Below are positions 3,301 to 24,477 of a DNA stretch of 64,000 bases, piece by piece. Under the pieces are notes generated by a model. The model was not told where the DNA came from. It saw nothing but the letters and a program-made list of their open reading frames with translations, and ran no database searches. The position numbers and the translations under genes were made by a program. Source of the stretch: Turritopsis dohrnii (taxonomy: Eukaryota > Cnidaria > Hydrozoa > Anthoathecata > Oceaniidae); assembly GCA_027922465.2 (NCBI GenBank), contig BQMF02000337.1, forward strand, positions 248,001 through 312,000, in the 5' to 3' direction. Every line of letters starts with the position of its first letter. Position 1 is the stretch's first letter.

Positions 3301-3995
3301 AATTGAGTAGTTGGGAAAGTTGAGATATTCTTATCTTTGCAGTTTGAATTAGCTGTTGGTCATATCTTAGAATTAGATTTCTATGGGTTTTGTTATTACT
3401 TTCGCAACTTATAATATATTACAAAATATATTTTCATCTTGAACAGGAGCTCTCTTTGAAGTATTCAATTTATAAATAATATGTAAAGTTGTTTTAAGGT
3501 GACCATATAATGAAGATATTTTTAGCAGTTTAATGCTACCACTGTTATATACTTTGTAGAAAGGAAGCAAATAACATTCCTGTATTATAACTCTGAACTG
3601 TGAAAACAAGTTACTTTACTTTTGCAGAATTAATCTCCCTGACTAAGTTATATAATTTATCAAATTAGGTGCTTGCAAATAATGTGAAAATTTTTGTTTT
3701 GAAAATTGTTTCCAAGAGAAAATGTTTTTAAGACAATCACACCTTAATGATAGACATTTTTGTGTGTATTTTCATATTTTATCACACAGCCCTTTTACGC
3801 ATAATTTTTCACCCGAAAATTTCTACCTCTACTAAAGCTAAGGAGGTATTATAATTATTTATTGGAAGCTCTCTAGTTGCAATCAAACAAAGATGACTTA
3901 TTATAGAATAGGTAACCAAAGATTTGGATGTTTGGATATTATAAACAAACAAATGAAAGTGTCTAGCTATACAAATAAATACATAATTGTTCCAC
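3301..3995. other. Gap between the LINE and the Ginger gene
   Basis: No domain-bearing ORF was found. The short ORFs at 3409-3609 and 3809-4117 (both minus) have no recognisable features. The 3' part is the likely 5' flank of the transposase gene; a terminal inverted repeat for that element was not identified here. Confidence 0.4.
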
Positions 3996-4087
3996 ACAAA
4001 GTAGTTCCTTATGCGAAGTAGTGCTCGCCGACCATAGTCGACATAGTGTCCGTACTTCGTGTAATTTGCAACTACTTTGTATAGGTA
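3996..4087. promoter_or_regulatory. Palindromic cluster of ACTACTTYG motifs upstream of the transposase gene
   Basis: Two motif copies on the minus strand (about 3996-4006 and 4013-4022) face two on the plus strand (4053-4060 and 4071-4080), forming an imperfect palindrome centred near 4037. The last copy extends to ACTACTTTGTATAGGTA, which matches 15 of 17 bases of the reverse complement of the satellite right arm plus its flank. It lies about 100 bp before the chosen ATG. A role as promoter or transposase-binding site is inference. Confidence 0.4.
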
Positions 4088-4186: not shown

Positions 4187-7100
4187 ATGTCTTCATTTCA
4201 AGAAAAAGAGTTTAACCTCTGGTTACAAAGTCAAAAGAACAAGAATAATAATGCTATTATTGAAGATGATACCTTTGCGGAAATATTGGCCTGCTTAAAA
4301 ACTGGAAAAGGTAAATAATAATGGGATTTTCTGTGTGCAGTACTGTCAGACTGCAGTACATGACATAACATCTTCATATAACTTTCTGTTAACAGTTTTA
4401 TTTCATTTGGTGCATATATGAATTAAGAAATGTTTACTGTGTATATACTAGTAGATTTAGCTTTTTTAGGAGGAGACAACAACCAATAATTTTGAATATA
4501 ATGACCTATAAAATTATATTTCAATACCGTGAGTTCGAGATTCAACTCTGTGAGGCGAGATTCAACATGCCAAAATCAAACTGCATCTGGTCAATAATTT
4601 AAATACATTATATTTTTAAAACTAAACCAAGTTATACAACACAAAAAAGATTTAAAGCAATCAAAACATTCATGAATGATTACCATTTAGAGAGACTCTG
4701 GCTGGCGCTATTTCCTTTTCGCACCCCCTATTTTTTTCACTGAAAACCTTTCTATACAGCACAACAAACATGTACATAGTGAAAAAAACATCTAAAATAT
4801 GGATGTTTTTGGCTGTACAAAGTCTTTTAACTCGTGTTGGGATTTGAAGAGCTCAAAGGCCATTTTACATTCGGCTATAATGTAAAAAAAAATTATTTTG
4901 GAGTGTAGTATAGATTATGTCTTGGTTCAGATATGCGATGTTGTGAAATTTCGAAATTATCTTGTTGAATGTTGTGGTCTGGATAATGGTGTTGTTGAAT
5001 CTCGCCCCACAGAGTTGAATCTCGGCCCAATCACGGTACACACATTACAATAAATACAATTTGATTAAGTTAAAAATTTAAAAAAATCTAAGGTTAACAA
5101 AGAAGGAAATTAAAACAAAAAACTAAAAATTGGTTAACCATACCAAAACGAGGGGATAGGGTTCCACAAGTTTTCCACAAGTTTCCACAAATTTTGAATA
5201 ATGTATATTTTCTGAGTAGATAAGATGTAATCCAATAGAAACTCCATTGTAATGTCATTTTTATATTTGGTGAAACATTGTAAGAGAGTATTACCGAAAT
5301 AGTTTTCTATGAGAAACCCCTCTTATTTTGCACCCACAATGATTTCTTAAATAACAATAGAAAGCAAAAAAGCAATTTACTTAACAGTTAGCTTTTTTTG
5401 GATTGGACTTGGATTGGATAGTGAATCAGAGATAAAATTAAGTTGCAATTATCACTCTTCTCAATAATTTTCTGTCATTTCTCAATCCACCACTAATTAA
5501 TTATATAGCTTTATAGAATAAAGATATCTATCAAGAATAGAAGTCTTGAGAAATTTCATGTAGTATTTCATCTATGATAAATCCAAAAAACAATTAAATA
5601 CAAGAATCCCAAAGATCTCGGATTACTTTCCAAGTGGGTTTCATTGAAATTTCACTTGAACATCAGTAAATTTTAAATCAAATTAGATTACATGCACTAA
5701 ATTCAACCTAATGAAAACTAAAGCACCTAACACAAATTTTATCTTTTCATTTACGTTGTCAGGTTCAAGGAAAATAAAGAAACGTATACGAGGTCATAAG
5801 TACCAGTTGGTTTCTTACTTGAACTTGGGTATTCCTGAAATGCTTTGTGCTCCATCCAATGAGGTGAGACCTTTACTATTAACAGTGAATTTTCCTTGCC
5901 AACCCATGTTTTTAATGTACACACACATAGCGCTTGTTCCATCATCTATACAAATTTATTCTTTTAATTGTAAATCAATACAGTAACAATGGCCAACCAA
6001 TAAAAGTATTTCAAAATGCTCAAATTCTACTTTTCATTTTGCAAACACTGTGCTTATAGAGTCACTCTGTTCTTGGTCACTATAAACAAGTAGTGAAATC
6101 AAGTGCAATGTTCCAAATAATACAACGTGTTCATTGTGATGTCTTGCAGCACTCAGGAGTTCTAAAGACATATCAAATGGTATGTATTTATAAAATCTAC
6201 ATAACTAAACTATCAATGAAAAATTGCTATATATACATGACTTGGATATATATTGTATTTTTATGTATTTTCATTAAAATAATTTTTCTTAGATTTCTGT
6301 AGATCATGCTCATGTGCCCAGATCAGCTGTTGAGAAATTTATAGCAAATTGTGAAGTGTGTGCTTTAAAAAAAGTTTGTAGTAACAGTGCTCCTTTAAAA
6401 CCCATCACTTCAAAAAAACTGCTTGAACGAATCCAGGTAAAATTAAAAATTATTTGAAGTTGATTTTCACCTCCTTTTCATACAAAATTAAATTGCTACA
6501 CTAATTATATACTTATATACTGGAAATTTGATGGATCTTTCAGAATTCATGCATTTTGCCTATTTGTGGTTTAAACTTCAATTTTATTCCATAAGCCGCT
6601 TGTTTTGCATTAATGAACAATATAAGAGAGTAGTTAAATGGTAAAACACCATTAATGGTTTAATGGAAATGGAGGTTCGATTCCTCCCTCTCTTCATGTT
6701 ACAACCTATATTTTTAGTATATGACTGCTTTTTCTTCCATTATACTTTATCCTTTTCAATAACATTTAGATTTAACTATTTTTCAGATTGATCTTATTGA
6801 CATGCAAAACCAACCAGATGGAGACTTTAAGTTTATTGGTCACATTGTTGATCACTACTCAAAATTTAGAATTTTTTTTCCAATGGTGACAAAATCTGCT
6901 GCAGAAACTGCAAACAACTGTATCAACAGGTTTTTTTCCATCTTTGGTCTGCCCCAAATTATTCATTCTGATAATGGAACCGAATTTGTTAATGATGTGT
7001 TGCGTGCTGTTACAGTTCTTTGGCCAGGGAAAAGTTCCTTTATCAGAGGTTCTCCTGGGCACAGTCAGTCACAAGGTTTAGTTGAGCAGGGCAACAATAC

Positions 7101-10100
7101 CTTAAGAACAATGATAGCAGCAAGATTTATCAAAGAAACGAGACTTGAATGGGTTAAATGGTTGCCAGAGTTCCAATGTAAATCTCTTCCTTCAACTGAT
7201 CAATGACAAGACAAAGATCTCCAGATTATTTATTCACTCAAAATGCATTTTTATTTTTAGTTGCAATGAATGTTTCGTATGTACGAAGTATTAAGAAATC
7301 CCCTTACGAGGTAGTTTTTGGACGGAAACCTAATATTGAAAGCATAAGTTTGCCTAATGTCTATGAAAATTCGGATGCCGTTGTTAATTTTTCAATATCT
7401 CAACCACAAGTTGAGGAAAATTTGAAAAATGGAGACACAGATTCAGAAAAGGAAGAGGAAGAAGTAGTGGTTGATATGGATGAACGTAAATGTCCTATTT
7501 CTGATTTTCATTTTTGGTTTTATTTTAGAATGTTGCACACCCTTGTGTATATCAGGTTATGTTTTATTTAATACTGTTAAATAAAGCTTTCAGTTTTATT
7601 GTATATAATTTTAAGATGCCCATACCATTTGTGATAATGTTGGTCGAGAAGAGATCGTAATTGCAGAGGAGATGGAAAGTTTTGAAGAATTGTATGAAAG
7701 TGAGCGGCAAAGAATAAGGAAGGAGGTTATTGATAATATTGAGGAAAATGCTGAATTCATGAAATTGAAACATGAGAGAAAAAGGAAAAGATCTGTGAAA
7801 AATTTCAACATTGGTGATAACGTGGTACTTCATCTAAAGAAGTCAGAACGTAGAGGTGCAACACTGCCCAATATTCCTTGTGTAATTATCTCCAAAACAT
7901 CTTGTAGGATACAACCACAGTATCGTCTGATCTGCGAAATAGGTGTAATTTCAAAATTAGTTAATGCATCAAGGTTGAGTATGTATCCTGGGGAAGTGGA
8001 AACTGGAGACAAAAATATTCGAGTAAGCATAAGAGAGGCAGTTAAAAAGTTATTGATGCCTCCCATTTGGTGTACATGTGTAAAGATACCGTGTAACCAA
8101 AATTTATGTAAATGCTATGCAACTGGCACGATTTGTTCTTCTCGATGCCATAAAGAAGATAATGGATATTGTCAGAATAAAGATAAAAGTTCCATGCATG
8201 GTTAGTATTTGCTAAGTATAAGCATTTCTTTAGATGATGTTTTTTTCACTCTCTGTTTACTTGATCTTGATTGCTTTTAGTACAAACAACAATGAATGAG
8301 GATTTTTCAATGGACCAATCAGAAATTATAGTTCAAGAAACGTCTGGTATGTATAAGATAGCATATTATATGCAGTTGATGACCTGCTGCTCAAACAGCA
8401 TTCATGTTATTAGGAATGAATTAAACAATGTAATATCACATAGAGTAAATTTTTGTTTTCTGTAGACAATCAAGTAATCACGCAAGCAGATACGGAGCCT
8501 GTTACCGAGCATAATTCAAACATAAAAGGTACGTGACTGCTGTTATTTTAAGAAAAACAGCATAATTTTCAGAATTGATTATCCTTGGCTGTTGTTAAGG
8601 ACAAAACATACAGAATTTTTTTCCTTCAATTTAAATATTTTGCTTGCTTATGTTTCAGATTTTGAATTGGATGGTTGTTTGAGAAACACAGACTGAACAG
8701 AACAAGCCACATTATTTTATGACATTAATGGACTTAACTGCATGACGACTGACGTATTTTACAAAAATTTGGACATCTTACTGATGTAGGAAACTTACTT
8801 AACCAAATGCAAACATTATCTTTCCAGGTAACATGTTAATGATCACTGACATAGTGAATGGGATCAAGACGTCATTATCTTATGATAACCCTGTGAGTAG
8901 AGCATGTAAAGCAATATAGTTTTAACCTATTCATTTTGTATGCTCTTTGATGTGGTTTTCAAATTTATAGAATCATGAGCAGTGCATTCTCCTGTTGGAT
9001 CGCCTTAAGTCATTAAACCTAACTGCTGGACAGTTGATGGAATATCCTGATGTTGTGAAGGCTATAAAATGTGTATGTATCATAATAATTGTGTACTTGA
9101 TATTTTGTTTTTATCTAACTAAAACCTTTACATTATTACATAAAATGTTTATACTCTTTTCTTTTGGAAGCTTAAGAGCTACAACAAGAATGATAATATT
9201 CGTTGCATGGCACAATCATTGCATAGTATGTTAGAAAAGAAATTTATTCAATCGACTGTTGATCGTAAGAAAATATTTGTTGGCTTTACATGTTATTCCA
9301 TAAGACATCTGAATGAGTCTTGTAATTACAACTTAACTGGTTCATCAGATTCTTTCTTTTTCAAGGAGTAAAGGTTACCCTGCATTTATATCCCCTTTTT
9401 GACAAAGTCTAATCTTAATTGATTGTCGATGACTTCACAGTGTTTACAATGGTCTAGATTATTAAATAATACATAAATGTTTCAGATAAGAGCCAAGACG
9501 AGACAGAACAAAGTTCATTATTGAACAAATTGAACATTGACTCTTCTTCTGAAGAAGATGATGAGTACTTGAGTTGCATAATGTCTAACAAATTTGGTGA
9601 GTGTTTAGTAAGAAAAGTAACGAGGATCTTATTTGTGGAAACCAATTTTTTGATACCTTTAATTCCCCTTTCTATAGTAAATGTGAATGAAAACAAGGAA
9701 ACTGCTATTGGATGTGAAGGTAATTATGTGGACAAAATATGGTTTTCTTAGTTGATGTGTTGCTTTTTTGTGATTAATCAATAAAATTTTTAATAAGGAA
9801 CTGAAACTGTAATGAAAAGTCAAACCGACCTCCTCATGTTATCTGATGTCGCTACTAATCAAGGTAATATGTCCAATTGTATCTTTTTCTTCATCAAGTA
9901 TTTTTTTCTAGAGGTTTTTCTATGAATAGTGCAAAATTGAAATAACGTGGAAACTATAATGTTGCAATGAAATTAAGCAAACATTTGTCTTTTTTATCAG
10001 AACGACTGGATGTTGCACAACATAGTGTTGCAGAACATGGCAATATATTAGAAAAACCAGGTAGTGTACCCTTTCTTATGGTTATCGCCTTTGAGATATT

Positions 10101-13100
10101 TCTATAATGTATGGTTGGCAGTAACTCGATATGATACTTAGAGTGTATTGAGAATTACAAACTTTTAGACGCAGCATCTGCTTCCAATGACCATCAACCT
10201 ACACCTATTGTTAAGGAGACCAGTAAGTATTTTTTCTATATCTTGTATATGTTTTTTCTGGTTATTATATAATCACCTCTGTAACTAAAACAAATCTCGA
10301 ACTTAATAGTAAATGTTCATTATATAGATTTTAAGACTAAAAAGACGTGCCTGCTTATCCTTTTTTCCTAGGTGATGTCAGTCAACATCAAAAACTCAAC
10401 GATGATCAGAATGAAGACACGGATCTTTTTCCAGCTTTCGGTGCTGATACATTGAGTTCCTGGCTTTCGTGTTTTGAAAGCTCTTCCCAGCTGATTGTTG
10501 ACGATCTTGTCTTTTGTTTCCTTTAAGGTGATGTCAGTCCACATCAAAAACTCAACGATGATCAGAATGAAGACTCAGATCTTTTTCCAGCTTTCGGTGC
10601 TGATACATTGAGTTCCTGGCTTTCGTGTTTTGAAAGCTCTTCCCAGCTGATTGTTGACTATCTTGTCTTTTGTTTCCTTTAAGGTGATGCTAGTCCACAT
10701 CAAAAACTCAACGATGATCAGAATGAAGACACGGATCATTTTGGCAAATTGACAGCAACTGTTTCACTGCAAGCTGGTACTGTTACCCTTTATCCTTTGT
10801 TGCTTCATTTATTTATGCTTAAAATATTTAATAGCTCTGCTTGCGGAACCCTGCTCATTTACCTTAAGGGGATTTGTTTTGCGTGGACTAATTTTTGCAA
10901 GCCAAGGTTTGAGAGCGTTTTGTATGGATTAATTTTGGTGAATTTGGTCAAAATTCTCAAAAGTCGCAAAAATTAATCCACGCCAAAAAAATCCCCATAA
11001 GGTAAATCAATATCAACATCAGCTTTAATGAAACTGCTAATTAATTTAATTTTATTCATGTACTGGATAGAAGTCAAGAAAGACAGTTTATTAGTGGGAA
11101 AAGAACCGTCATGCGGCGATAGTTCACTCAAAGGTGTTTCATTTTTGTTTTTTATAATTTTTAATGCATAGTCCCCATCACTTCATGTACACACCTTGAA
11201 AACGCCTGAAAACTGGGGCAGGACCGGAATTTTCCAATCATTTCTCCCCTGAAATGGTGAGCAATCTGTGCAGTGGTTCGTAGTCTCAATAATACATTTC
11301 TTAATTTTTAATACTAAGCTTTCATCAATATTATAGACGGGAAAGATGAAGAAAATATGCCTGTAGCAAGTACAATTTCAAAAGGTCAAGCTGATGGTTT
11401 ACTTACTGGGGCAGAGAATGGTAAGGCAGTTTAACAATAACATGTTCGTGGGTTGCTATTTATTGAAGATATTTGACTTTAAAAGGAAATTGTTTATCTA
11501 TCCGTTTTTAGTGTCACCAAAGTTGCATTTGAGATTACCTACTCGTATGCAGAAACGCGGAAGACCCAAAGGAATCGAATTTTCAGTTATTGGGCGAGAG
11601 AAGAGAAGAAGAAAAATTGGCGCAATAGCATTCACTAATTTGAAAATTGCGGAAAAGCAACATAGAATGTTAATTTGGTTGTTCGGTGAAATAAAGGGAT
11701 CTATTGTTTTTAAAAAGAAAAGAAAAGTTACTGCTGCAGAATTAAGTAACAATCAATCGAGTATTGCTGACAGCTTTTTGGATGACGCTGTTGATGTGAA
11801 ATTGTTGTTGCATTTTTTTTCTAAGCCAGCATGGAGAAAATTTAATTCCTTACTCAGACAAAAAGGTGTCATATTTGATTATGTGTAATATTGTATGTCA
11901 GTACAATTTCTTCATAATACAAAAAATTCTTTCCTCCTCAGAAAAAATTCAATCATGGACTTGCAGAAAATGCAAAACCAAAATACAGGACGGTGACCAT
12001 ACCATTGCTTGTGAGTGCTGCTTAAGTTGGTTTCACCTAAAGAAGTGTTCTGGTTTGATAAAGAAACCGAAAGTGCGAAATTGGTTTTGTTCTGAATGTT
12101 CTGGCAGTAAGTTCTCGATACCATTTTTAGTTTTGATCATAATTTTATCGTTTCCTTGTGCGTATTGAAAATTTGTGTTTTAGGTAAACCAACAGAACCT
12201 GTAAATGAATCAACTGATGAATCTGACGACTCTCTTACTCGAGAGTTTAAAAAAGTACGTTTACACCCAAACAAGAGCGCTTGGGAAAAACACACAGAAT
12301 CAAAATTAAAGAAAACAAAGCGTTCGCTAACTCAGACTTCACCATTTTCCCTGTCCTATGAAGACCTGGTTACGTTGAAAGAAGGTTCATACATTCTTGG
12401 TCAAGTCTTAGATGCACTACTTATTCTTTTCAGTTCATATTTATTTCGAGCCGGCATCAATGTTTACCTGCTTCCTGAAACATTTTTTTCAAGAGTTTCA
12501 GTTGATACGACACTGGAAAATACCATCCCTGATGATTTTGACGGCATCGATTTCGTTGTTGCAGTTTCCCATGCGACTAATCATTGGGTTCTTGTCATGA
12601 TAGACATTGCAAAACAACAAGTTTTATATTTTGACCCTATGTTCACTTTCTTGAACATAGCAAAGCAGCAACATGATCTTCAAATCATAAACAATATTAT
12701 TTGGTATCGTATATTGTGTGAACCCTTAGATACGAAACCACCTTCGCGAGTTTGGGATGTTGTATTAGCGAAGGATTACGAAAATGATTTTGGGCAAAAG
12801 TTACCTCGCCAAACCTCAGGCTGTGATTGTGGGTTATTTTGTGTCATGTATTTTTTTTACATTGGAAAGAACTGTCAATTCGACTTCAGTGTCAAAGACA
12901 TGGGATGCATACGGAATTGGTGTAGCGCCTTGCTGACAGAATTCCACAATGATAGTTTGACATCGAAATACACCAGGTGGTTAATGGGGAAAATGGGAAA
13001 CGATAGACTTGGTTCATTAAAGTTGAATCCTAAGGTAAAGACAATCGTTTCTTGGTTTTTGAACATGTCTCAATTTTTCTAGTGTATATATAAAGTATAT

Positions 13101-13472
13101 ATAACCGTCTATGATTTTATTTATTAGGATGAGATGACTTCTTCAGATGATGAACTTCATGAGAACGGGAAGAGAATGATCGAACTCTTCAAAAAGTCGA
13201 AAAAAGACGGGACGTTTACAAAGATAGTGGAAGATTCCCAAGATCCAAGCAAAAACCCGTTCCTGCTTTTGCCAGAAATCTATAAAATGCCCATTAACGC
13301 CCTAGAGTTAGTAAAGGAAGAAAATCCTGTTTTCTTTGAAGCATTCGAAAACATGAAGGACGGTCATGGGACATCCGTCTATTTGACACAAGAGTTGAAA
13401 CTATCACCTGGGAAAATAACAACTGACCGTTATAATTACATTAAGACGCAAATGATGCTTTTAGATCAATAA
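4187..13472 (+). CDS. Ginger1-type transposase with IBD-like, PHD and Ulp1 protease domains (26-exon model)
   Basis: Exons in my model: 4187-4310, 5763-5863, 6060-6179, 6293-6436, 6787-7177, 7261-7485, 7529-7555, 7616-8200, 8281-8346, 8466-8528, 8828-8892, 8971-9072, 9171-9264, 9486-9596, 9678-9719, 9798-9863, 10001-10060, 10169-10222, 10372-10440, 10528-10596, 10684-10776, 11337-11420, 11512-11865, 11942-12106, 12184-13034, 13128-13472. All introns are GT-AG, phases agree at each junction, and the sum is 4,470 nt (1,489 aa). Domains in order: HHCC finger, DDE integrase core, GPY/F-like region, Cys-rich segment, LEDGF-IBD-like bundle, acidic micro-exon linker, AT-hook, PHD, Ulp1. Ginger1 transposases are known to resemble Gypsy integrases and to carry OTU or Ulp1 proteases. 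There is no reverse transcriptase, gag or LTR. Element ends were not located. An earlier in-frame ATG at 4103 is possible. Acceptor 8657-8658 opens an exon that soon stops, perhaps an alternative end. Domestication is possible. Confidence 0.8.
4527..5036. mobile_element. MITE with about 36-bp TIRs in intron 1 of the transposase gene
   Basis: Both ends read TA-CCGTGA inward and share a block containing GAGATTCAACTCTGTG followed by GCGAGATTCAACA, in inverted orientation. TA flanks each end, as expected for a Tc1/mariner-type target duplication. Length is 510 bp. No coding capacity was seen. Confidence 0.65.
6060..6436 (+). CDS. HHCC zinc-finger exons of the Ginger transposase
   Basis: Two exons (6060-6179 and 6293-6436) encode the N-terminal zinc-binding module of Gypsy-type integrases. 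The first gives the His pair (RVHCDVLQHSGVLKTYQ), the second the Cys pair in ANCEVCALKK. In retroviral-type integrases this module helps multimerise the enzyme and bind element ends. Both exons are phase 0 at their shared junction and lead directly into the catalytic core exon. All four ligands are present, which argues against decay. Confidence 0.8.
6624..6694 (+). tRNA. tRNA-like sequence, anticodon ambiguous
   Basis: A 71-nt stretch in intron 4 of the transposase gene folds as a cloverleaf: a perfect 7-bp acceptor stem (AAGAGAG with CTCTCTT), a perfect T arm (GGAGG-TTCGATT-CCTCC), a weak 3-bp D stem with GG in its loop, and an anticodon stem CCATT/AATGG. The internal A box (TAGTTAAATGG) and B box (GGTTCGATTCC) match the pol III consensus, and a T5 terminator follows at 6711-6715. 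The anticodon loop has 8 nt instead of 7, so the identity cannot be read. It may be a pseudogene or a SINE head. Confidence 0.45.
6787..7177 (+). CDS. DDE integrase core exon of the Ginger transposase
   Basis: This exon encodes the rve-type catalytic domain. The first strand IDLIDMQ carries the first acidic residue (model Asp165 or Asp168). HSDNGTEF gives the second Asp (residue 225). GHSQSQGLVEQGNN gives the Glu (residue 263), 37 residues later. The reaction is strand transfer of element ends with two metal ions. The closest remembered relatives are KRBA2-like and other Ginger-derived proteins. The exon ends in phase 1 and joins 7261 through an 84-bp intron, continuing into a YEVVFGRKP motif typical of this group. 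Confidence 0.88.
7616..8200 (+). CDS. GPY/F-like and cysteine-rich exon of the Ginger transposase
   Basis: After a charged helix, the segment FNIGDNVVLHLKKSERRGA followed by an NIPCVIISK strand and a YRLICEIGVISKLVNASRL strand pair resembles the small beta domain (GPY/F module) after the core in Gypsy-type integrases. The exon ends with a block of regularly spaced Cys and one His (WCTCVKIPCNQNLCKCYATG, then CSSRCHKEDNGYC), like the terminal Cys-rich motif of KRBA2-type proteins. It probably binds zinc. DNA or chromatin contact is inferred. Confidence 0.7.
8828..9264 (+). CDS. LEDGF/TFIIS-N-like helical domain exons (candidate integrase-binding domain)
   Basis: Three exons (8828-8892, 8971-9072, 9171-9264; model residues about 616-703) encode a helix-rich stretch. 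By eye it follows the pattern of the LEDGF/p75 and HRP2 integrase-binding domain: I-x3-IK-x-SL, then DN in a loop, then CI-x3-LD-x-L-x-SL, T-x2-Q, a DVVKAIKCLKSY helix and AQSLHSML near the end. The loop Asp that in LEDGF contacts lentiviral integrase (Asp366) appears kept, and the Phe406 position is Tyr. The alternative is a generic TFIIS N-terminal domain. I judge the fold assignment likely and the binding role unproven. Confidence 0.55.
9486..11420 (+). CDS. Train of phase 1-1 micro-exons encoding an acidic linker
   Basis: Nine consecutive small exons (111, 42, 66, 60, 54, 69, 69, 93 and 84 nt) all begin after the first base of a codon and end after the first base of the next, so each can be skipped or duplicated without changing frame. 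Exons at 7529, 8281 and 8466 follow the same rule. The peptides are rich in Asp, Glu, Ser and Gln (for example SSSEEDDEYLS) and have no fold signature. The likely role is a flexible linker between the integrase half and the PHD-Ulp1 half, with possible alternative splicing. Confidence 0.65.
10372..10776 (+). repeat. Exon-intron unit triplicated in tandem (156-bp period)
   Basis: Starts at 10372, 10528 and 10684 show the same exon (peptide DVSxHQKLNDDQNEDTD). The first two copies also share the following intron up to the acceptor. Copies 1 and 2 use a weak donor, GTGCTG; copy 3 diverges after the shared core and uses GTACTG. The period of 156 and exon sizes of 69, 69 and 93 all preserve frame. 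This is a recent internal duplication that lengthens the linker. Confidence 0.85.
10862..11002. mobile_element. Small palindromic MITE (141 bp)
   Basis: Ends read CCTTAAGGGGATTT and AAATCCCCATAAGG, with long near-complementary arms around a short centre, flanked by TA. The CCTTA terminus resembles other MITEs in the window (23103 and 58970). It sits in an intron of the transposase gene. Confidence 0.6.
11512..11865 (+). CDS. AT-hook exon of the Ginger transposase
   Basis: Near its start the exon encodes KRGRPKG, a canonical AT-hook core, followed by a basic stretch (REKRRRK) and a helical region of unknown fold. AT-hooks insert into the minor groove of AT-rich DNA. Coming just before the PHD finger, it suggests chromatin or AT-rich DNA targeting of the transposase. 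The exon starts and ends in phase 1 and joins the PHD exon in frame. Confidence 0.6.
11942..12106 (+). CDS. PHD finger exon of the Ginger transposase
   Basis: The exon encodes a compact Cys4-His-Cys3 finger: WTCRKCKTKI, then IACECCLSWFH, KKCSG, and a closing NWFCSECSG with the conserved Trp two residues before the last Cys pair. PHD fingers read histone H3 tails or unmodified lysine. It spans model residues about 1041-1090 and is followed directly by the protease exon. All zinc ligands are present. Confidence 0.85.
12184..13034 (+). CDS. Ulp1/SENP-type cysteine protease exon (C48)
   Basis: The exon carries the catalytic set of Ulp1 proteases in order: His in NHWVLVMID (model residue about 1225), Asp in LYFDPM (about 1242), the oxyanion Gln in PRQTSG (about 1301) and Cys in GCDCGLF (about 1307). 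Such enzymes cleave SUMO-like proteins from targets. Ginger1 elements are known to carry Ulp1 or OTU proteases in this position. An acidic N-terminal stretch links it to the PHD. The domain looks complete and unbroken. Confidence 0.88.
13128..13472 (+). CDS. Terminal exon of the Ginger transposase, unknown tail
   Basis: The donor at 13035 and acceptor at 13126-13127 join in phase 0, giving a 114-residue C-terminal tail that ends at a TAA. It has an acidic start (TSSDDELHENGK) and predicted helices but no domain I recognise. A second intronless reading of the previous exon would end at 13082 with a different short tail. Confidence 0.6.
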   Translation, partial: DEMTSSDDELHENGKRMIELFKKSKKDGTFTKIVEDSQDPSKNPFLLLPEIYKMPINALELVKEENPVFFEAFENMKDGHGTSVYLTQELKLSPGKITTDRYNYIKTQMMLLDQ

Positions 13473-13675: not shown

Positions 13676-14434
13676 TTAATTGTACTTTGTAACTATATAA
13701 TGTACTAGATAATGTTTGTTACGAGCAAATAGTCGCAGTTGGGATTTAGTTTCGGTCGCACTAACTGGATATAAAAATCTAGAATCTCCATAGTTCGAGA
13801 ATCGAGAATCGAGAATCACAGTGTCAAATAAATATCTATCGGCAGTATTGAATTCCTTCTGGTCGATGTAACCTCCATTGGTCTTTGCTTTATTAATCAT
13901 TTCTATGGTTAAGTATTGATAGGTCATTGGTCTGGAACACTTAACACGAACAAATAAATACGTAGCAATAAATCTCGTTGCAAACGCCAGTTGAGATGCC
14001 GACACGTTTCGTTCGTCTCTGCATTCTTGTAAGATGTCCCTAAAACGATTGATGTGATATGGGATGACGTTTTCCATTTCGTCCAAGGTCGCCCAACTGT
14101 TTCGAGCAATGAGCGTTTCCAAATCCAGATTGCCAGAATACTCGAGTCTCTTTCTTTTTCCCAGATTTGCTTTACCACGTCGTATGTAAACTTCGGTGAC
14201 GGCAAAACAACGTAATGTGCTGTCGGATACACCGTTCCCTTTTCGAAAGTCAAGTATGTCTGATATTGATTTTAAGTAATTTAACGACGCCGAACAACTT
14301 AGTTTCCAATCTTCTTCAAGAGTTTTAAGGAAGTCCATAATGATGAAGGGTGTACCCAAGCAACAATCGACGAATTCTTCGGTTAAACACAATTCTGATT
14401 CCAGGTCGTCAAAACTAGCCATTAAAAATTTCAT
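13676..14434 (-). CDS. Transposon-associated ORF, tentatively tyrosine-recombinase related
   Basis: A 252-residue ORF runs toward the transposase gene. Segments such as RCFAVTEVYIRRGK, LDLETLIARNSW, FATRFIATYLFVRVKCSRP and MTYQYLTIEMINKAK belong to a family that I recall as abundant in cnidarian and other invertebrate genomes and that I associate with Crypton-like tyrosine recombinases. The C-terminal part where the catalytic Arg, His and Tyr boxes would lie is short or divergent, so activity is doubtful. A start at the internal Met (MASFDD, about 14419) is as likely. Its 5' end lies only about 75 bp from the satellite. It could also be an exon of a larger gene. The function is not established. 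Confidence 0.4.
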   Translation of the reverse strand: MKFLMASFDDLESELCLTEEFVDCCLGTPFIIMDFLKTLEEDWKLSCSASLNYLKSISDILDFRKGNGVSDSTLRCFAVTEVYIRRGKANLGKRKRLEYSGNLDLETLIARNSWATLDEMENVIPYHINRFRDILQECRDERNVSASQLAFATRFIATYLFVRVKCSRPMTYQYLTIEMINKAKTNGGYIDQKEFNTADRYLFDTVILDSRFSNYGDSRFLYPVSATETKSQLRLFARNKHYLVHYIVTKYN

Positions 14435-14508
14435 ACATCGTTATGCACATTGTTTTGCTTCTTTTTCAGACTTCCCTCCTCCACATGGTGTACGCAGCCA
14501 GTTCAAAA

Positions 14509-17500
14509 ACGTCTTTTTATGTAAAGGATCGTTCACGGGAATTTACCCGTTGGTGTCTGTTGGCTAGACGTAGAAACGAATTCTGAGAAGAAGTTACCAC
14601 TTGGTATGGCCTATGTGTACCTATACGAAGTGGTTCCTTTTTATCTAAAGGATCGTTCACGGGAATTTACCCGTTGGTGTCTGTTGGCTAGACGTAGAAA
14701 CGAATTCTGAGAAGAAGTTACCACTTCGTATAGCCTATGTGTACCTATACGAAGTGGTTCCTTTTTATCTAAAGGATCGTTCACGGGAATTTACCAGTTG
14801 GTGTCTGTTGCCTAGGCGTAGAAACGAATTCTGAGAAGAAGTTACCACTTGGTATAGCCTATGTGTACCTATACGAAGTGGTTCCTTTTTATCTAAAGGA
14901 TCGTTCACGGGAATTTACCAGTTGGTGTCTGTTGGCTAGACGTAGAAACGAATTCTGAGAAGAAGTTACCACTTGGTATAGCCTATGTGTACCTATACGA
15001 AGTGGTTCCTTTTTATCTAAAGGATCGTTCACGGGAATTTACCCGTTGGTGTCTGTTGGCTAGACGTAGAAACGAATTCTGAGAAGAAGTTACCACTTCG
15101 TATAGCCTATGTGTACCTATACGAAGTGGTTCCTTTTTATCTAAAGGATCGTTCACGGGAATTTACCAGTTGGTGTCTGTTGCCTAGGCGTAGAAACGAA
15201 TTCTGAGAAGAAGTTACCACTTGGTATAGCCTATGTGTACCTATACGAAGTGGTTCCTTTTTATCTAAAGGATCGTTCACGGGAATTTACCCGTTGGTGT
15301 CTGTTGCCTAGGCGTAGAAACGAATTCTGAGAACAAGTTACCACTTGGTATGGCCTATGTGTACCTATACGAAGTGGTTCCTTTTTATCTAAAGGATCGT
15401 TCACGGGAATTTACCCGTTGGTGTCTGTTGGCTAGACGTAGAAACGAATTCTGAGAAGAAGTTACCACTTCGTATAGCCTATGTGTACCTATACGAAGTG
15501 GTTCCTTTTTATCTAAAGGATCGTTCACGGGAATTTACCAGTTGGTGTCTGTTGCCTAGGCGTAGAAACGAATTCTGAGAAGAAGTTACCACTTGGTATA
15601 GCCTATGTGTACCTATACGAAGTGGTTCCTTTTTATCTAAAGGATCGTTCACGGGAATTTACCAGTTGGTGTCTGTTGCCTAGGCGTAGAAACGAATTCT
15701 GAGAAGAAGTTACCACTTGGTATGGCCTATGTGTACCTATACGAAGTGGTTCCTTTTTATCTAAAGGATCGTTCACGGGAATTTACCCGTTGGTGTCTGT
15801 TGCCTTGACGTAGAAACGAATTCTGAAAGGAAGTTACCACTTGCTATAGCCTATGTGTACCTATACGAAGTGGTTCCTTTTTATCTAAAGGATCGTTCAC
15901 GGGAATTTACCCGTTGGTGTCTGTTGCCTTGACGTAGAAACGAATTCTGAGAAGAAGTTACCACTTGGTTAGCCTATGTGTACCTATACGAAGTGGTTCC
16001 TTTTTATCTAAAGGATCGTTCACGGGAATTTACCCGTTGGTGTCTGTTGCCTTGACGTAGAAACGAATTCTGAAAGGAAGTTACCACTTGGTATAGCCTA
16101 TGTGTACCTGTACGAAGTGGTTCCTTTTTATCTAAAGGATCGTTCACGAGAATTTACCAGTGGGTGTCTGTTGCCTTGACGTAGAAACGAATTCTGAGAA
16201 GAAGTTACCACTTGGTATGGCCTATGTGTACCTATACGAAGTGGTTCCTTTTTATCTAAAGGATCGTTCACGGGAATTTACCCGTTGGTGTCTGTTGCCT
16301 AGGCGTAGAAACGAATTCTGAGAAGAAGTTGCCACTTGGTATAGCCTATGTGTACCTATACGAAGTGGTTTCATTTTATCTAAAGGATCGTTCACGGGAA
16401 TTTACCCGTTGGTGTCTGTTGCCTAGGCGTAGAAACGAATTCTGAGAAGAAGTTACCACTTGGTATGGCCTATGTGTACCTATACGAAGTGGTTCCTTTT
16501 TATCTAAAGGATCGTTCACGGGAATTTACCCGTTGGTGTCTGTTGCCTTGACGTAGAAACCAATTCTGAAAGGAAGTTACCACTTGCTATAGCCTATGTG
16601 TACCTATACGAAGTGGTTCCTTTTTATCTAAAGGATCGTTCACGGGAATTTACCCGTTGGTGTCTGTTGCCTTGACGTAGAAACGAATTCTGAGAAGAAG
16701 TTACCACTTGGTTAGCCTATGTGTACCTATACGAAGTGGTTCCTTTTTATCTAAAGGATCGTTCACGGGAATTTACCAGTTGGTGTCTGTTGCCTAGGCG
16801 TAGAAACGAATTCTGAGAAGAAGTTACCACTTGGTATAGCCTATGTGTACCTATACGAAGTGGTTCCTTTTTATCTAAAGGATCGTTCACGGGAATTTAC
16901 CCGTTGGTGTCTGTTGGCTAGACGTAGAAACGAATTCTGAGAAGAAGTTACCACTTCGTATAGCCTATGTGTACCTATACGAAGTGGTTTCTTTTTATCT
17001 AAAGGATCGTTCACGGGAATTTACCAGTTGGTGTCTGTTGCCTAGGCGTAGAAACGAATTCTGAGAAGAAGTTACCACTTGGTATGGCCTATGTGTACCT
17101 ATACGAAGTGGTTCCTTTTTATCTAAAGGATCGTTCACGGGAATTTACCCGTTGGTGTCTGTTGCCTTGACGTAGAAACGAATTCTGAAAGGAAGTTACC
17201 ACTTGCTATAGCCTATGTGTACCTATACGAAGTGGTTCCTTTTTATCTAAAGGATCGTTCACGGGAATTTACCCGTTGGTGTCTGTTGCCTTGACGTAGA
17301 AACGAATTCTGAGAAGAAGTTACCACTTGGTTAGCCTATGTGTACCTATACGAAGTGGTTCCTTTTTATCTAAAGGATCGTTCACGGGAATTTACCCGTT
17401 GGTGTCTGTTGCCTTGACGTAGAAACGAATTCTGAAAGGAAGTTACCACTTGGTATAGCCTATGTGTACCTGTACGAAGTGGTTCCTTTTTATCTAAAGG

Positions 17501-20500
17501 ATCGTTCACGAGAATTTACCAGTGGGTGTCTGTTGCCTTGACGTAGAAACGAATTCTGAGAAGAAGTTACCACTTGGTATGGCCTATGTGTACCTATACG
17601 AAGTGGTTCCTTTTTATCTAAAGGATCGTTCACGGGAATTTACCCGTTGGTGTCTGTTGCCTAGGCGTAGAAACGAATTCTGAGAAGAAGTTGCCACTTG
17701 GTATAGCCTATGTGTACCTATACGAAGTGGTTTCATTTTATCTAAAGGATCGTTCACGGGAATTTACCCGTTGGTGTCTGTTGCCTAGGCGTAGAAACGA
17801 ATTCTGAGAAGAAGTTACCACTTGGTATGGCCTATGTGTACCTATACGAAGTGGTTCCTTTTTATCTAAAGGATCGTTCACGGGAATTTACCCGTTGGTG
17901 TCTGTTGCCTTGACGTAGAAACCAATTCTGAAAGGAAGTTACCACTTGCTATAGCCTATGTGTACCTATACGAAGTGGTTCCTTTTTATCTAAAGGATCG
18001 TTCACGGGAATTTACCCGTTGGTGTCTGTTGCCTTGACGTAGAAACGAATTCTGAGAAGAAGTTACCACTTGGTTAGCCTATGTGTACCTATACGAAGTG
18101 GTTCCTTTTTATCTAAAGGATCGTTCACGGGAATTTACCAGTTGGTGTCTGTTGCCTAGGCGTAGAAACGAATTCTGAGAAGAAGTTACCACTTGGTATA
18201 GCCTATGTGTACCTATACGAAGTGGTTCCTTTTTATCTAAAGGATCGTTCACGGGAATTTACCCGTTGGTGTCTGTTGGCTAGACGTAGAAACGAATTCT
18301 GAGAAGAAGTTACCACTTCGTATAGCCTATGTGTACCTATACGAAGTGGTTTCTTTTTATCTAAAGGATCGTTCACGGGAATTTACCAGTTGGTGTCTGT
18401 TGCCTAGGCGTAGAAACGAATTCTGAGAAGAAGTTACCACTTGGTATGGCCTATGTGTACCTATACGAAGTGGTTCCTTTTTATCTAAAGGATCGTTCAC
18501 GGGAATTTACCAGTTGGTGTCTGTTGCCTAGGCGTAGAAACGAATTCTGAGAAGAAGTTACCACTTGGTATGGCCTATGTGTACCTATACGAAGTGGTTC
18601 CTTTTTATCTAAAGGATCGTTCACGGGAATTTACCCGTTGGTGTCTGTTGGCTAGACGTAGAAACGAATTCTGAGAAGAAGGTACCACTTCGTATAGCCT
18701 ATGTGTACCTATACGAAGTGGTTCCTTTTTATCTAAAGGATCGTTCACGGGAATTTACCAGTTGGTGTCTGTTGCCTAGGCGTAGAAACGAATTCTGAGA
18801 AGAAGTTACCACTTGGTATAGCCTATGTGTACCTATACGAAGTGGTTCCTTTTTATCTAAAGGATCGTTCACGGGAATTTACCAGTTGGTGTCTGTTGCC
18901 TAGGCGTAGAAACGAATTCTGATAAGAAGTTACCACTTGGTATGGCCTATGTGTACCTATACGAAGTGGTTCCTTTTTATCTAAAGGATCGTTCACGGGA
19001 ATTTACCCGTTGGTGTCTGTTGCCTTGACGTAGAAACGAATTCTGAAAGGAAGTTACCACTTGCTATAGCCTATGTGTACCTATACGAAGTGGTTCCTTT
19101 TTATCTAAAGGATCGTTCACGGGAATTTACCCGTTGGTGTCTGTTGCCTTGACGTAGAAACGAATTCTGAGAAGAAGTTACCACTTGGTTAGCCTATGTG
19201 TACCTATACGAAGTGGTTCCTTTTTATCTAAAGGATCGTTCACGGGAATTTACCCGTTGGTGTCTGTTGCCTTGACGTAGAAACGAATTCTGAAAGGAAG
19301 TTACCACTTGGTATAGCCTATGTGTACCTGTACGAAGTGGTTCCTTTTTATCTAAAGGATCGTTCACGGGAATTTACCAGTGGGTGCCTTGACGTAGAAA
19401 CGAATTCTGAGAAGAAGTTACCACTTGGTATGGCCTATGTGTACCTATACGAAGTGGTTCCTTTTTATCTAAAGGATCGTTCACGGGAATTTACCCGTTG
19501 GTGTCTGTTGCCTAGGCGTAGAAACGAATTCTGAGAAGAAGTTGCCACTTGGTATAGCCTATGTGTACCTATACGAAGTGGTTCCATTTTATCTAAAGGA
19601 TCGTTCACGGGAATTTACCCGTTGGTGTCTGTTGCCTAGGCGTAGAAACGAATTCTGAGAAGAAGTTACCACTTGGTATGGCCTATGTGTACCTATACGA
19701 AGTGGTTCCTTTTTATCTAAAGGATCGTTCACGGGAATTTACCCGTTGGTGTCTGTTGCCTTGACGTAGAAACGAATTCTGAAAGGAAGTTACCACTTGC
19801 TATAGCCTATGTGTACCTATACGAAGTGGTTCCTTTTTATCTAAAGGATCGTTCACGGGAATTTACCCGTTGGTGTCTGTTGCCTTGACGTAGAAACGAA
19901 TTCTGAGAAGAAGTTACCACTTGGTTAGCCTATGTGTACCTATACGAAGTGGTTCCTTTTTATCTAAAGGATCGTTCACGGGAATTTACCCGTTGGTGTC
20001 TGTTGCCTTGACGTAGAAACGAATTCTGAAAGGAAGTTACCACTTGGTATAGCCTATGTGTACCTGTACGAAGTGGTTCCTTTTTATCTAAAGGATCGTT
20101 CACGGGAATTTACCAGTGGGTGTCTGTTGCCTTGACGTAGAAACGAATTCTGAGAAGAAGTTACCACTTGGTATGGCCTATGTGTACCTATACGAAGTGG
20201 TTCCTTTTTATCTAAAGGATCGTTCACGGGAATTTACCCGTTGGTGTCTGTTGCCTAGGCGTAGAAACGAATTCTGAGAAGAAGTTGCCACTTGGTATAG
20301 CCTATGTGTACCTATACGAAGTGGTTCCATTTTATCTAAAGGATCGTTCACGGGAATTTACCCGTTGGTGTCTGTTGCCTAGACGTAGAAACGAATTCTG
20401 AGAAGAAGTTACCACTTGGTATAGCCTATGTGTACCTATACGAAGTGGTTCCTTTTTATCTAAAGGATCGTTCACGGGAATTTACCCGTTGGTGTCTGTT

Positions 20501-21215
20501 GCCTTGACGTAGAAACGAATTCTGGAAGGAAGTTACCACTTGGTATAGCCTATGTGTACCTATACGAAGTGGTTCCTTTTTATCTAAAGGATCGTTCACG
20601 GGAATTTACCCGTTGGTGTCTGTTGCCTTGACGTAGAAACGAATTCTGAGAAGAAGTTACCACTTGGTATAGCCTATGTGTACCTATACGAAGTGGTTCC
20701 TTTTTATCTAAAGGATCGTTCACGGGAATTTACCCGTTGGTGTCTGTTGCCTTGACGTAGAAACGAATTCTGAGAAGAAGTTACCACTTGGTATGGCCTA
20801 TGTGTACCTATACGAAGTGGTACCTTTTTATCTAAAGGATCGTTCACGGGAATGTGGGTGTCTGTTGCCTTGACGTAGAAACGAATTCTGAGAAGAAGTT
20901 ACCACTTGGTATAGCCTATGTGTACCTATACGAAGTGGTTCCTTTTTATCTAAAGGATCGTTCACGGGAATTTACCCGTTGGTGTCTGTTGCCTAGACGT
21001 AGAAACGAATTCTGAAAGGAAGTTACCACTTGGTATAGCCTATGTGTACCTATACGAAGTGGTTCCTTTTTATCTAAAGGATCGTTCACGGGAATTTACC
21101 CGTTGGTGTCTGTTGCCTAGACGTAGAAACGAATTCTGAAAGGAAGTTACCACTTGGTATAGCCTATGTGTACTTCGTATAGGTACACATAGGCTATACC
21201 AAGTTGTAACTTTTT
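14509..21215. repeat. Satellite: about 54 tandem copies of a 124-bp unit with loxP-like inverted arms
   Basis: The unit recurs every 124 bp (GGATCGTTCACGG at 14526, 14650, 14774, 14898). Each has an EcoRI site and, in the best copies, an inverted repeat ACCACTTCGTATA ... TATACGAAGTGGT around a 13-bp centre. The right arm is nearly invariant; the left arm is often ACCACTTGGTATA or -GGTATG. Sub-variants (CTAGACG, CTAGGCG, CTTGACG) define a higher-order block of 11 units (1,362 bp): markers at 15801, 16145 and 16561 recur at 17163, 17507 and 17923. Two later units carry short deletions (near 19387 and 20853). ORFs inside are by-products of the repeat. Confidence 0.95.
21156..21213. repeat. Terminal inverted fold of the satellite
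   Basis: The last unit runs into its own reverse complement: ACTTGGTATAGCCTATGTG is followed after a short centre by CACATAGGCTATACCAAGT. The array thus ends in a hairpin-forming palindrome with arms of over 20 bp rather than by simple loss of similarity. Confidence 0.85.
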
Positions 21216-23050
21216 GCAGGACAACTACTAGTTGGTGTAGCCTATCTGTGGCCATGCAAAGCACTTCATTACCGTAAAACTGGTTTAAAAAATATATATA
21301 TATACTGTATGTCTACTTTGTTTAATGCTTGCATTCCTATGGAATGGGATTCACCTATCATTTGGTGATGTAGGCTAAAACAGGGACAAATAATTAGAAG
21401 AATCAGAAGCTAAGAAAATAACATTTTCTCACGCGGAAATGTCAATTAAATGAAAATTTGGCAAATTCATGAAACATTAAAATCTTGGGTAAGTATGAAA
21501 AAAAATGAAGAAAGAAGGATTAACTGCACATTATTATATTTTTTCTGTAAATATTTTGGCAACCACTTTGTAGAATCATATACCTAAGTATCAAATCAAT
21601 GCGTGAAATTTTATAAATAATTACAAAACTACTATGGTGAAAGACAAAAAGAAAGCTAATGAAAATTATAGAATTATTAGAAAAATTATTATTAGAAAAA
21701 AATTATAGAAATATTCAATATCGCAAACATGCATTTCATGAAATATAATAAGCTTTTAACTATATAAAATAAGTACTTTTCGGAAGCTCATTAGTTTGAG
21801 TGGTGTTCATTTAACAAAGTCATCATTAACACAGATATAACAATGAACTCATCAAAATGAAAAACATTTATGTAGAAGAAAAAATGAGTTTTCAAAGAGA
21901 ACATTTCTTTCTAATTTGATTGTCCAAAGGATGATTATTATAAATATCTAAGTCAAGAATAGATAGATACATAAACCAATACCGATACATAGTTTTGACT
22001 TATTTATTACTCTTCGTCAATAACAATATAACAATATAATAATAACAATACAAGCAGTATCTGCACTTGAAACAGGTTTCGCGTTTCGTATTGTTGCTTT
22101 TACTTTGAGAAACGATTATATGTCGGCGGCGGTATCACAGTTTTTGTTATTTGCACTTTTCCTTTATGGGAAGTAGACCTTGACATTGACCTCCCTTGAA
22201 CAAAGATAAGACCCAGCCATCTGTTTGTTACAGTTTAGTATTCTTTTTTGATATTCTGGTGAAAAATAGATGTTATCTATTTCCAACTAAAGTTTGTATA
22301 TACACCCAGGCACTGAATTAGGTGTTTCCCTACTTTCGATTTTATTAAATTTCTTGCATCCGCAAAAATTAATTCCGCAAAATAATGGCATTTTTGGGTC
22401 ATTTATCGGCAAAAATATATTCCTCAAAAATTTCTACCACAAACAATTTCTTCCCTTAAAGGTATAATAAATTTTCTCATATATATATATACAGTTTTTT
22501 TAATAGAATCACGAGGCTGAAATTCATCAAAACTTAAGAATTAAGATTCACACTTGGGCCCATAATTATGTAACCAAAAATTTTTAAAAGCCATAGAATC
22601 AAATCCAATGTACATGATGACTGTGGGAAATATCAGACATTCTTTTGTTAGAATTTTTCATGCTTTTAAACCCAGCATTCAAAAGTTTATACAAATCAGT
22701 CATTTTTAGATCGGAAATCATGTGCACAACATTCTAATGTTTTGTTTGAATGAGAAAATTTTACAAAATACAACAACACATTCATTATTGTTCAATGAGA
22801 GATAAGATAAGATGAGTGCCAGAAAGAGGAGGAAACAACTCAACAAATTTAAGAAATAATATATACCCCTAAACATCACATAAATAAAGCTCAGGTTACC
22901 CTTTTCCTAAAAAAAGTGCCTTTTGGATGTTCATAGTGCCCTTTTTCCTTGTGCCGGACGCTGCCCTTCCATTGTAGATTAGTTCCTGTCCAAACTTTAT
23001 TATCAAATCGGCCATAGTAAATGGAACCATAATAACAGCGGCCATAAGGA
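21216..23050. other. AT-rich gap after the satellite
   Basis: No gene with a recognisable domain was found. Contents include short TA runs (near 21290 and 22480) and a degraded repeat near 22370-22460 with a CCCTTAAAGGTA end like the small MITEs. The minus ORF 22891-23175 overlaps the MITE end and looks spurious. Confidence 0.4.
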
Positions 23051-24178
23051 ACTACTTCGTAAAATTGGTCACTACTTCGTGTGCGGAGCGCAAGTGCTAC
23101 TACCTTATCGGACAAAACAATGTCGGACAAAATTTTCGTCGGACAAAATAATTCGTCGGACAATATTTTCGTCACCCGTGGAAAATTTCGTCACTTTTGT
23201 CCGACGAATAATTTTGTCCGACGAAAATTTTTGTCCATTTCTTAAGTTTTGGAAAACAACATAAATTACTCAGTATCATCATTTATATGTTATACAACAG
23301 TATTAACTTTGAAGACATGCTACAAATCTTTCTACTTCCAATCATAAAATGTTCTACTTTTTTTCTATAAAAAGTTCAATTGTGCTATCAATGTTTTCAT
23401 CTAACAAGTTTTCAGTCAAATTTCAGATGTCTCACTGCTATTTTCATCATCTTCATCCAAAACGACTCGTGATGATTTTTGTGTTGCGATTGTGCTTTCC
23501 TCGTTAATTGGAGAAAACTTTCTTTTGATTCCAGGCTTTAAATACTCACCGTCACTATTTCAGTTTTCAGGGTTTCTTTCTACTTTCATTAAAAGAATCC
23601 TTACACGTTTTTTTTAATAAGGAACACACTTATAAGGAACGCGAGGCTGATATTTTGCCTCAATCTTAATGCTATCTCCGAAACTATTATCAGTACTGAA
23701 TATTCTAAAATCTGAGGTTAAAGATAAGGAACTGTGAGACTCAAATCAAACTTAATGTTCCTTATAAAGAAAACAACGTGTAGACATTTGTTTTAAAGCA
23801 GTATTATGTTTTATAATCTCTAGAACTATTTTGTTCAGTATAATGTTTTTTTGTTTTATTTCTAGAACTAAACCTCTTATGTTAACGCAGTTATGCTGTT
23901 ATATTAAGTTTATGTTATACATATTTCATTGTAGTAGAAAATAGAGGAAAAATCTTTAAAGCAGTTCATAAACATTCTTTCTTTATCAAAGAATGAATAT
24001 TATTCAAACTTTGGTTTCGGACAAAATTTTTCGTCGGACAAAATTATTCGTCGGACAAATTTTTCGTCGGACAAAATTATTCGTCGGACAAAATTTTCGT
24101 CACCCATGGAAAATTTCGTCACTTTTGTCCGACATTGTTTTGTCCGATAAGGTACTTCGGATAAACTCACTACTTCGG
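23051..24178. repeat. Four ACTACTTCG motif copies interrupted by a MITE
   Basis: Copies at 23051, 23071, about 23099 (split by the MITE insertion) and 24169 would lie within about 75 bp before the insertion. The stretch CATAAGGAACTACTTCGT matches, in inverted orientation and with one mismatch, the cluster at about 3997-4014 upstream of the transposase gene. They may mark the far subterminal region of the same element; this is inference. Confidence 0.4.
23103..24152. mobile_element. MITE, 1,050 bp, TIR CCTTATCGGACAAAAC
   Basis: Both ends read CCTTATCGGACAAAACAATG inward and continue with repeated GTCGGACAAAATT and CGTCAC blocks, each bordered by TA. The left end itself contains a nested inverted copy of these blocks. 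The middle 770 bp is AT-rich with no gene. It is a non-autonomous TA-targeting element, related by its CCTTATCGG end to the one at 58970. Confidence 0.75.
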
Positions 24179-24477
24179 TTGGAACACATACAGTTGTCTC
24201 TACTAGGAATTTGCCTGAACAAGACATCTCGTTCTGGTTTTGTATAGGGTTGTACATAGCCAATAGCATTAGCTTAAAAATGGTAAACTTGAACGTGTGG
24301 AAATGTGGTCGCAGCCAAACGACTTTTGAATTTTTCTTATTCCATCTGAATAAAGTGTTTGGAATATGAAAGGAAATTCTGTGCACCCAAGAAAAGGGCC
24401 GCAAAATGCTATATATATAGAATTAGGAGACATCTACTTGCTTTCTCCTTTGTACTAAAATCTTTCAGTAATAAGGC
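24155..24477. other. Short gap before the USP-bearing element
   Basis: No gene was recognised. It starts with the last ACTACTTCGG motif and otherwise holds unremarkable AT-rich sequence up to the 9-bp target site at 24478-24486. Confidence 0.4.

Follow-up and report, generated by a model that had tools for sequence, protein, structure and literature searches.

A Ginger1-like transposon of Turritopsis dohrnii with a predicted LEDGF/HRP2-type integrase-binding domain in its own integrase-type transposase

Within a 64,000-nucleotide stretch of the 436 Mb genome of the hydrozoan Turritopsis dohrnii (contig C337, 248001-312000; hereafter the window), a Ginger1-like DNA transposon carries a gene whose predicted product joins an integrase core to an integrase-binding domain (IBD) of the kind found in LEDGF and HRP2. 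The kind of transposon is known; what appears from the sequence to be new is an IBD placed within the integrase protein, on exons laid out as in a host gene of the same genome. We consider it highly probable that a symmetric host exon module was captured once and then retained under selection. For the whole statement, in which the captured domain would in addition offer host proteins a place to dock, the chances seem to us evenly balanced.

Results and discussion

The transposase gene and the identity of the IBD

The gene model lies on the + strand (4187-13472) and consists, with splicing predicted from the DNA, of 23 exons and 1,434 codons with zero internal stops; all 22 of its introns are of the GT-AG type. 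The integrase core comes first, followed by the IBD and then by a PHD-like and Ulp1 protease region. The features of the element are as follows.

3988..4008, + strand: left terminus (TGTTCC...), identical in the window and C127 copies, with 2 mismatches in C20 and 3 in C95
4187-4310, 5763-5863, 6060-6179 and 6293-6436, + strand: exons 1-4, N-terminus and H2C2-type zinc finger (gene model; Integrase_H2C2 profile)
6787-7177 and 7261-7485, + strand: exons 5-6, integrase core with D165, D225 and E263 of the model (rve profile; acidic triad aligned)
7616..8200, + strand: exon 7, end of the integrase region and CXC-like cysteine stretch (TCR/CXC below cut-off)
8281-8346 and 8466-8528, + strand: exons 8-9, linker (gene model)
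8828..8892, + strand: exon 10, IBD exon 1, phase 1 in and phase 0 out
8971..9072, + strand: exon 11, IBD exon 2, 34 codons, phase 0 at both ends
9171..9264, + strand: exon 12, IBD exon 3, phase 1 out
9486..9596, + strand: exon 13, acidic linker with the conserved stretch EEDDEYLSCIMSNKF at its end (DNA and peptide likeness among families)
9678..11420, + strand: exons 14-19, a run of short exons forming linkers, phase 1 at both ends (gene model)
11512..11865, + strand: exon 20, contains KRGRPKG (gene model)
11942..12106, + strand: exon 21, PHD-like (PHD 17.2 bits, cut-off 24)
12184-13034 and 13128-13472, + strand: exons 22-23, Ulp1-type cysteine protease and C-terminus (Peptidase_C48 profile)
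14513..21173, no strand: 124-base satellite, 53.9 copies, probably within the element, on its 3' side
24163..24186, no strand: candidate right terminus ending GGAACA, 7 of 24 positions mismatched against the reversed left end

The three IBD exons (8828-8892, 8971-9072 and 9171-9264) have AG/GT borders and form one continuous frame, so that the three in-frame exons of the initial annotation reappear in the stop-free model. Spliced, the domain has 85 residues (8833-8892, 8971-9072 and 9171-9263) and occupies residues 607-694 of the model; the same domain had earlier been placed at residues 616-703, a position that is corrected here. All of the motifs by which it was first recognized (IK-T-SL, a DN loop, C-I...L-D-R-L and AQSL) are present. 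The Pfam LEDGF model, PF11467, matches the domain alone with an E-value of 2.3e-10 (40.6 bits, cut-off 26.3) and the full model with an E-value of 9e-9 (35.4 bits, residues 613-693), and the TFIIS-type model PF08711 (Med26) reaches 17.7 bits with the domain, against a cut-off of 20.6. Lack of a profile match had been named in advance as a reason to drop the domain, and the PF11467 match gave no such reason. The best match of a single-sequence search of PDB was the IBD of HRP2 (6t3i, E-value = 2.9e-5), with LEDGF IBD entries next; when a 4-row profile of the transposon families was used, 6t3i was found at 2e-9, the best 23 matches were all HRP2 or LEDGF, and TFIIS first appeared at an E-value of 0.43. 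A profile-profile comparison with an alignment of LEDGF, HRP2 and the host gene gave 98.5 probability over 73 columns, from thin profiles of 4 and 3 rows. By these comparisons the domain is closer to the LEDGF/HRP2 IBD than to other TFIIS-type bundles, and the PF11467 score above the cut-off and the HRP2/LEDGF matches in PDB uphold the identity proposed for it by eye.

Other domains of the transposase and class of the element

In the full model, the Pfam family rve is recognized at residues 160-238 (38.5 bits, cut-off 32.6) and Peptidase_C48 at residues 1152-1281 (47.4 bits, cut-off 20.7). The three acidic residues of the integrase core (D, D and E) line up with those of homologues, and the integrase part matches a GIN1-like protein and a KRBA2-like protein. 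Integrase_H2C2 scores 23.7 bits against a cut-off of 25.5, with an H..H..C..C pattern that can be aligned with homologues, and the CXC-like stretch scores 18.4 bits (TCR/CXC, cut-off 23.5), with a cysteine pattern common to the proteins P0001, P0020, P0044 and P0002. For the PHD-like exon (score in the list above), a Pfam search with the whole protein listed no PHD match at E <= 1. KRGRPKG in exon 20 is presumably AT-hook-like. Neither PWWP, which together with the IBD defines the LEDGF/HRP2 protein family, nor a reverse transcriptase is among the Pfam families of the full transposase model. A Gypsy LTR retrotransposon was rejected as the identity of the element: the model has no reverse transcriptase, and the reverse transcriptase fragment at 1989-2795 (RVT_1, 51.9 bits) is on the opposite, minus strand, immediately beyond the left terminus.

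In the available part of Bao et al. 2010 (PMC2836005), Ginger1 elements are described as having a Gypsy-integrase-like transposase with an H2C2 finger and a DDE core, reported C-terminal domains (namely, OTU, Ulp1 and PHD) and 1-4 reported GT-AG introns; the word LEDGF does not occur in that text. The model of the present element likewise has a Gypsy-type integrase core, a C-terminal Ulp1, a PHD-like part, GT-AG introns and no reverse transcriptase, whereas its 22 introns and its IBD set it apart, and its terminus and target site deviate. The regions of the Ginger1 motifs YPYY and GPY/F align with homologues, with letters that do not clearly spell the motifs. Its end reads TGTTC as against TGTNR in Ginger1, and to the Ginger1 TIRs of ~40-270 bp corresponds a weak right-end candidate of 24 bases. 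The window copy is flanked by TAAT and CATA and not by the 4-bp duplication of Ginger1 (CCGG or CCGT/ACGG), and no matching target-site duplication was found at its ends; the left flanks of other copies are TTAT at C127, TATG at C95 and CCGT at C20, and the right ends of these copies were not found. Because the window copy has neither the TGTNR end nor the CCGG/CCGT duplication, the element is called Ginger1-like here and strict membership in Ginger1 is not claimed: the earlier assignment to Ginger1 agrees with the integrase core and Ulp1, but not with the end and the duplication.

The homology between the window and C127 starts exactly at the left terminus. The C127 copy is without the 124-base satellite, and its homology to the window resumes at 21580; the satellite is probably inside the element. 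The right terminus is possibly at 24163-24186, with some uncertainty. Behind the transposase gene, an open frame of 254 codons lies on the minus strand (13676-14440), for which a Pfam search gave nothing at E <= 1, and the copies at C127 and C567 end within it. Intron 4 of the transposase gene contains a tRNA-like sequence (6624-6695; Rfam, 52.5 bits) whose anticodon was not named by ARAGORN. At 10370-10742 a linker exon, including its splice acceptor, is doubled by a tandem repeat (156 bases, 2.4 copies) whose number of units varies among the copies.

An uncharacterized protein of Clytia hemisphaerica (P0001, 1,363 aa) shows 36% identity over 96% of the integrase-part query. Like the element, it has rve and C48 above the cut-off; unlike the element, it has no LEDGF match. 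After its CXC stretch is an NTCxxDTW region, which is also present in C14, C640 and family C (see below) and is not seen in the window model; a Pfam search with this stretch of C394 gave nothing at E <= 1.

Copies in the genome and selection on the IBD

IBD exons were found in three diverged families of Ginger1-like transposon in the same genome: family A (the window, C127 and C567), family B (C95, C686, C20, C64 and the relic C405) and family C (C394, C605, C7 and C667). Their spliced IBDs score 40.6, 42.7 and 33.5 bits, respectively, with PF11467 (cut-off 26.3), and an extra, weak match to IBD exon 2 lies at C567:191472 (E-value = 0.0017). The claim of an integrase-type transposase with an IBD of its own is thus, on predicted splicing, borne out by a single frame shared with the rve core and kept in all three families. 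A PF11467 search of the genome itself gave seven matches (the host gene, C20, C64, C95, C686, C55 and C46); absent from its results were the window, C127, C567 and the loci of family C, with exons that are singly too short. No transposon exon was found at C55, which has a stop within the match, or at C46, whose 458-aa frame has by eye the look of a Harbinger-type transposase, and both were rejected as IBD transposons.

From 1,223 candidate integrase matches in the genome, 150 were scored. Nine of the ten loci with at least 70% integrase identity carry IBD exons on the same strand, at distances of up to ~10 kb (C7 and C667), and the tenth, C303, gave no IBD match. None of the other scored integrase matches lies by eye near an IBD match, except the second piece of the C7 element, and tblastn found no IBD in C14 and C640 (5 kb each). 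A FastTree tree, built on 130 integrase columns with 24 loci and two proteins from databases, groups all nine IBD carriers with C303 in a single clade (local support 0.987). Since the carriers fall within one integrase clade, a single gain of the IBD, with loss or deletion at C303, would be the simplest account.

Between families A and B, DNA similarity is recognized by blastn (E <= 1e-10) in exons 4, 5 and 13 only; in exon 13, 55-62 bases are 87-89% identical to C20, C95 and C686. Families A, B and C all conserve a short acidic-hydrophobic stretch like EEDDEYLSCIMSNKF right behind the IBD (window 9548-9596), with counterparts in C95 (L014 ~5889-5942) and C394 (L039 ~4240-4280), and a similar stretch precedes the PHD-like part in the IBD-less C14 (L041). 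As a guess, this stretch might be a SUMO-interacting motif paired with the Ulp1 protease.

In the comparison of the IBD between families (NG86), A versus B gave a pS of 0.66 and a pN of 0.28 (ratio 0.22) and B versus C a ratio of 0.25, whereas A versus C was saturated at synonymous sites, with a pN of 0.33. Left out of the table of IBD ratios were c127, which has a stop, c20, with its exon 1 unjoined, c64, for which there is exon 2 alone, and c686, whose IBD protein is identical to that of c95. The integrase exon behaves alike between families but is more conserved (pN 0.11-0.15, pS saturated). Judged from these ratios, the IBD is under purifying selection between families. The ratio within family A (IBD of the window versus C567) is 0.56 on few changes, and that of the integrases of C394 and C303 is 1.5 on very few changes; such recent copies say little about selection.

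Transposons can take host exons along, and the IBD might be a functionless passenger captured by chance, as the ratio of 0.56 within family A and the seeming loss of the domain at C303 would allow; but with pN well below pS between families, the IBD kept in all three of them, and DNA similarity between A and B surviving in exons only, we regard this as barely credible.

Capture of host exons

A host gene of the LEDGF/HRP2 type is located on C576, in which one IBD exon alone scores 28.8 bits and the spliced IBD 65.8 bits; upstream of its IBD are charged linkers and, farther upstream, a PWWP-like exon recognized by eye, GDLVWAKMKGYPHWPARV. This gene and all three transposon families agree in the positions of the two IBD introns and in the phases (1-0-0-1). 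IBD exon 2 is 34 codons long in all of them except family C, where it has 32. This exon layout, common to transposon and host gene, suggests that the IBD was taken from a host LEDGF/HRP2-type gene, and from the narrow presence of the domain in one transposon clade we infer that the transfer went from host to transposon. A module that is entered and left in phase 1 fits the phase-1 introns of the transposase gene, which prevail in the part flanking the IBD. The residues of the window and host IBDs are identical at 22 of the 84 compared codons, an identity so low that the donor may have been an ancestor or relative of the C576 gene.

Compared with LEDGF/p75 and HRP2, the transposase has an IBD with a profile score above the cut-off and with the intron positions and phases of this genome's host gene, but its model is without PWWP, and its IBD sits on the integrase, whereas LEDGF binds an integrase from outside. 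The initial annotation had further held that the domain could bear on how the lentiviral interaction arose; any such bearing is indirect, the intron layout being common with the host gene and nothing linking the domain to lentiviruses.

A stop-bearing candidate exon before the IBD

Upstream of the IBD, families A and B have a candidate exon (8660-8695 in the window) with a proper acceptor and an early in-frame stop. Its counterpart in C95 is just 5' of IBD exon 1, and its first peptide is similar to that of the window. A single polypeptide with both integrase and IBD requires that this candidate exon be skipped. Used as an alternative last exon, it might give an integrase form without the IBD, and alternative splicing could thus produce forms with and without the domain.

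Entirely separate products, namely a short integrase ending at this stop and another transcript with the IBD, the PHD-like part and Ulp1, are decidedly unlikely in our judgement. Along with the candidate exon, its proper acceptor and its similar starting peptide in the window and C95, an ATG near the start of family A's IBD exon 1 would be in keeping with them; but the family B exon lacks an ATG, an argument against an independent gene beginning at that point, and the phases join integrase, IBD and Ulp1 free of stops once 8660-8695 is skipped. Even so, both products would come from one transposon.

Conserved residues and possible ligands of the IBD

Families A, B and C and HRP2 share an Asp at a place that we take, by numbering, to be that of LEDGF D366 and that is occupied by Lys in the host gene. 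At another place, which presumably corresponds to LEDGF V408, the transposon IBDs have an invariant Lys, and HRP2 and the host gene have A; this Lys may alter the binding of ligands. According to the available part of PMC2706977, D366 of LEDGF is needed for contact with HIV-1 integrase. The residues invariant across four aligned IBDs include DNP..QC in the first inter-helix region and a Tyr and a Lys in the last. MLL touches two inter-helix regions in HRP-2 (PMC7835958, in the part available), and the invariant columns would, by our own placement of the loops, lie largely in about these two regions.

The IBD could bind the integrase core of its own transposase, within one chain or across the multimer, as LEDGF binds lentiviral integrase, and thereby control the assembly or stability of the complex. 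We consider this unlikely. All three families retain Asp at the D366 place despite the Lys of the host gene, and IBD and core are in one chain of the model, both of which would suit such a contact; yet HRP2, which is unfused to any integrase, has the Asp too, and IBD-less Ginger1-like copies and homologues have similar cores, so the core generally does not need an IBD. A scan of the window transposase model found no FxGF, and hence no such internal ligand. That this DNA transposon has a self-contained pair, in which the captured IBD contacts its own core through the invariant Asp loop, thus appears doubtful; if it were true, the LEDGF-integrase partnership would have arisen independently a second time, with both partners in a single protein.

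The reading that we favour over contact with the transposase's own integrase is docking on host proteins, which we hold tentatively, at slightly less than an even chance. The usual host partners of LEDGF/HRP2 (MLL, IWS1, PogZ and MED1, for example) would dock on the IBD and thereby bring the transpososome to transcribed chromatin, and the transposase would go where proteins with IBD-binding motifs already sit. PogZ and MLL act in chromatin regulation. The invariant Lys at the V408 place may speak against ordinary ligand binding by the transposon IBD. In LEDGF, the N-terminal part makes the contacts with chromatin and the IBD binds cargo (PMC2706977 and PMC7835958, available parts). The "cis tether" that the domain had been called is therefore partly supported: the predicted IBD in the integrase polypeptide stands, but the tethering role does not follow from LEDGF. 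An IBD in cis would be a docking port and not in itself a tether, although the same model also contains PHD-like and AT-hook-like stretches.

PogZ and MLL are among the known ligands of the IBD (PMC7835958, available part), which would also suit a decoy that occupies host HRP2/LEDGF ligands and so blunts silencing or DNA-damage responses without any aiming of insertion. The sequence gives a decoy no preference over docking, fusion to an integrase would be unnecessary for it, and we think it very unlikely.

Occurrence elsewhere and significance

When the IBD region was compared with ~5.8 billion proteins, none of 197 candidates had an E-value of 0.001 or less. Protein searches with the integrase part gave 19 and 46 proteins, 61 of them distinct; PF11467 matched none of these 61 homologues, and a local IBD profile found nothing in them below an E-value of 0.41 (the window model, a member of that profile and hence not an independent control, scored 137 bits). 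A good many of these proteins are Gypsy-type polyproteins or short fragments, and only relatives with exact words in common are picked up by the search; absence of the architecture from other species is weakly indicated. It has been seen in this one genome, and no report of an IBD in a transposase was found in the literature searched (titles and opening abstract lines in one library). In humans, PWWP and IBD are combined only in LEDGF/p75 and HRP-2, according to the available part of PMC7835958.

With respect to lentiviruses, the arrangement is a mirror image: the lentiviral integrase binds the IBD of its host, whereas the integrase of this transposase would carry its own. Chromovirus integrases carry chromodomains, targeting domains that read histone marks directly; there too a domain is fused to the integrase, but the IBD instead binds short motifs of other proteins. 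The integrase of HIV must borrow its docking domain from host LEDGF, and the transposase described here appears to have such a domain built in. The matching introns make it a clear case of exon capture from host to transposon, apparently by the shuffling of a symmetric module, and a transposon with an IBD in its own integrase protein would represent an independent natural experiment on the aiming of integrases at chromatin.
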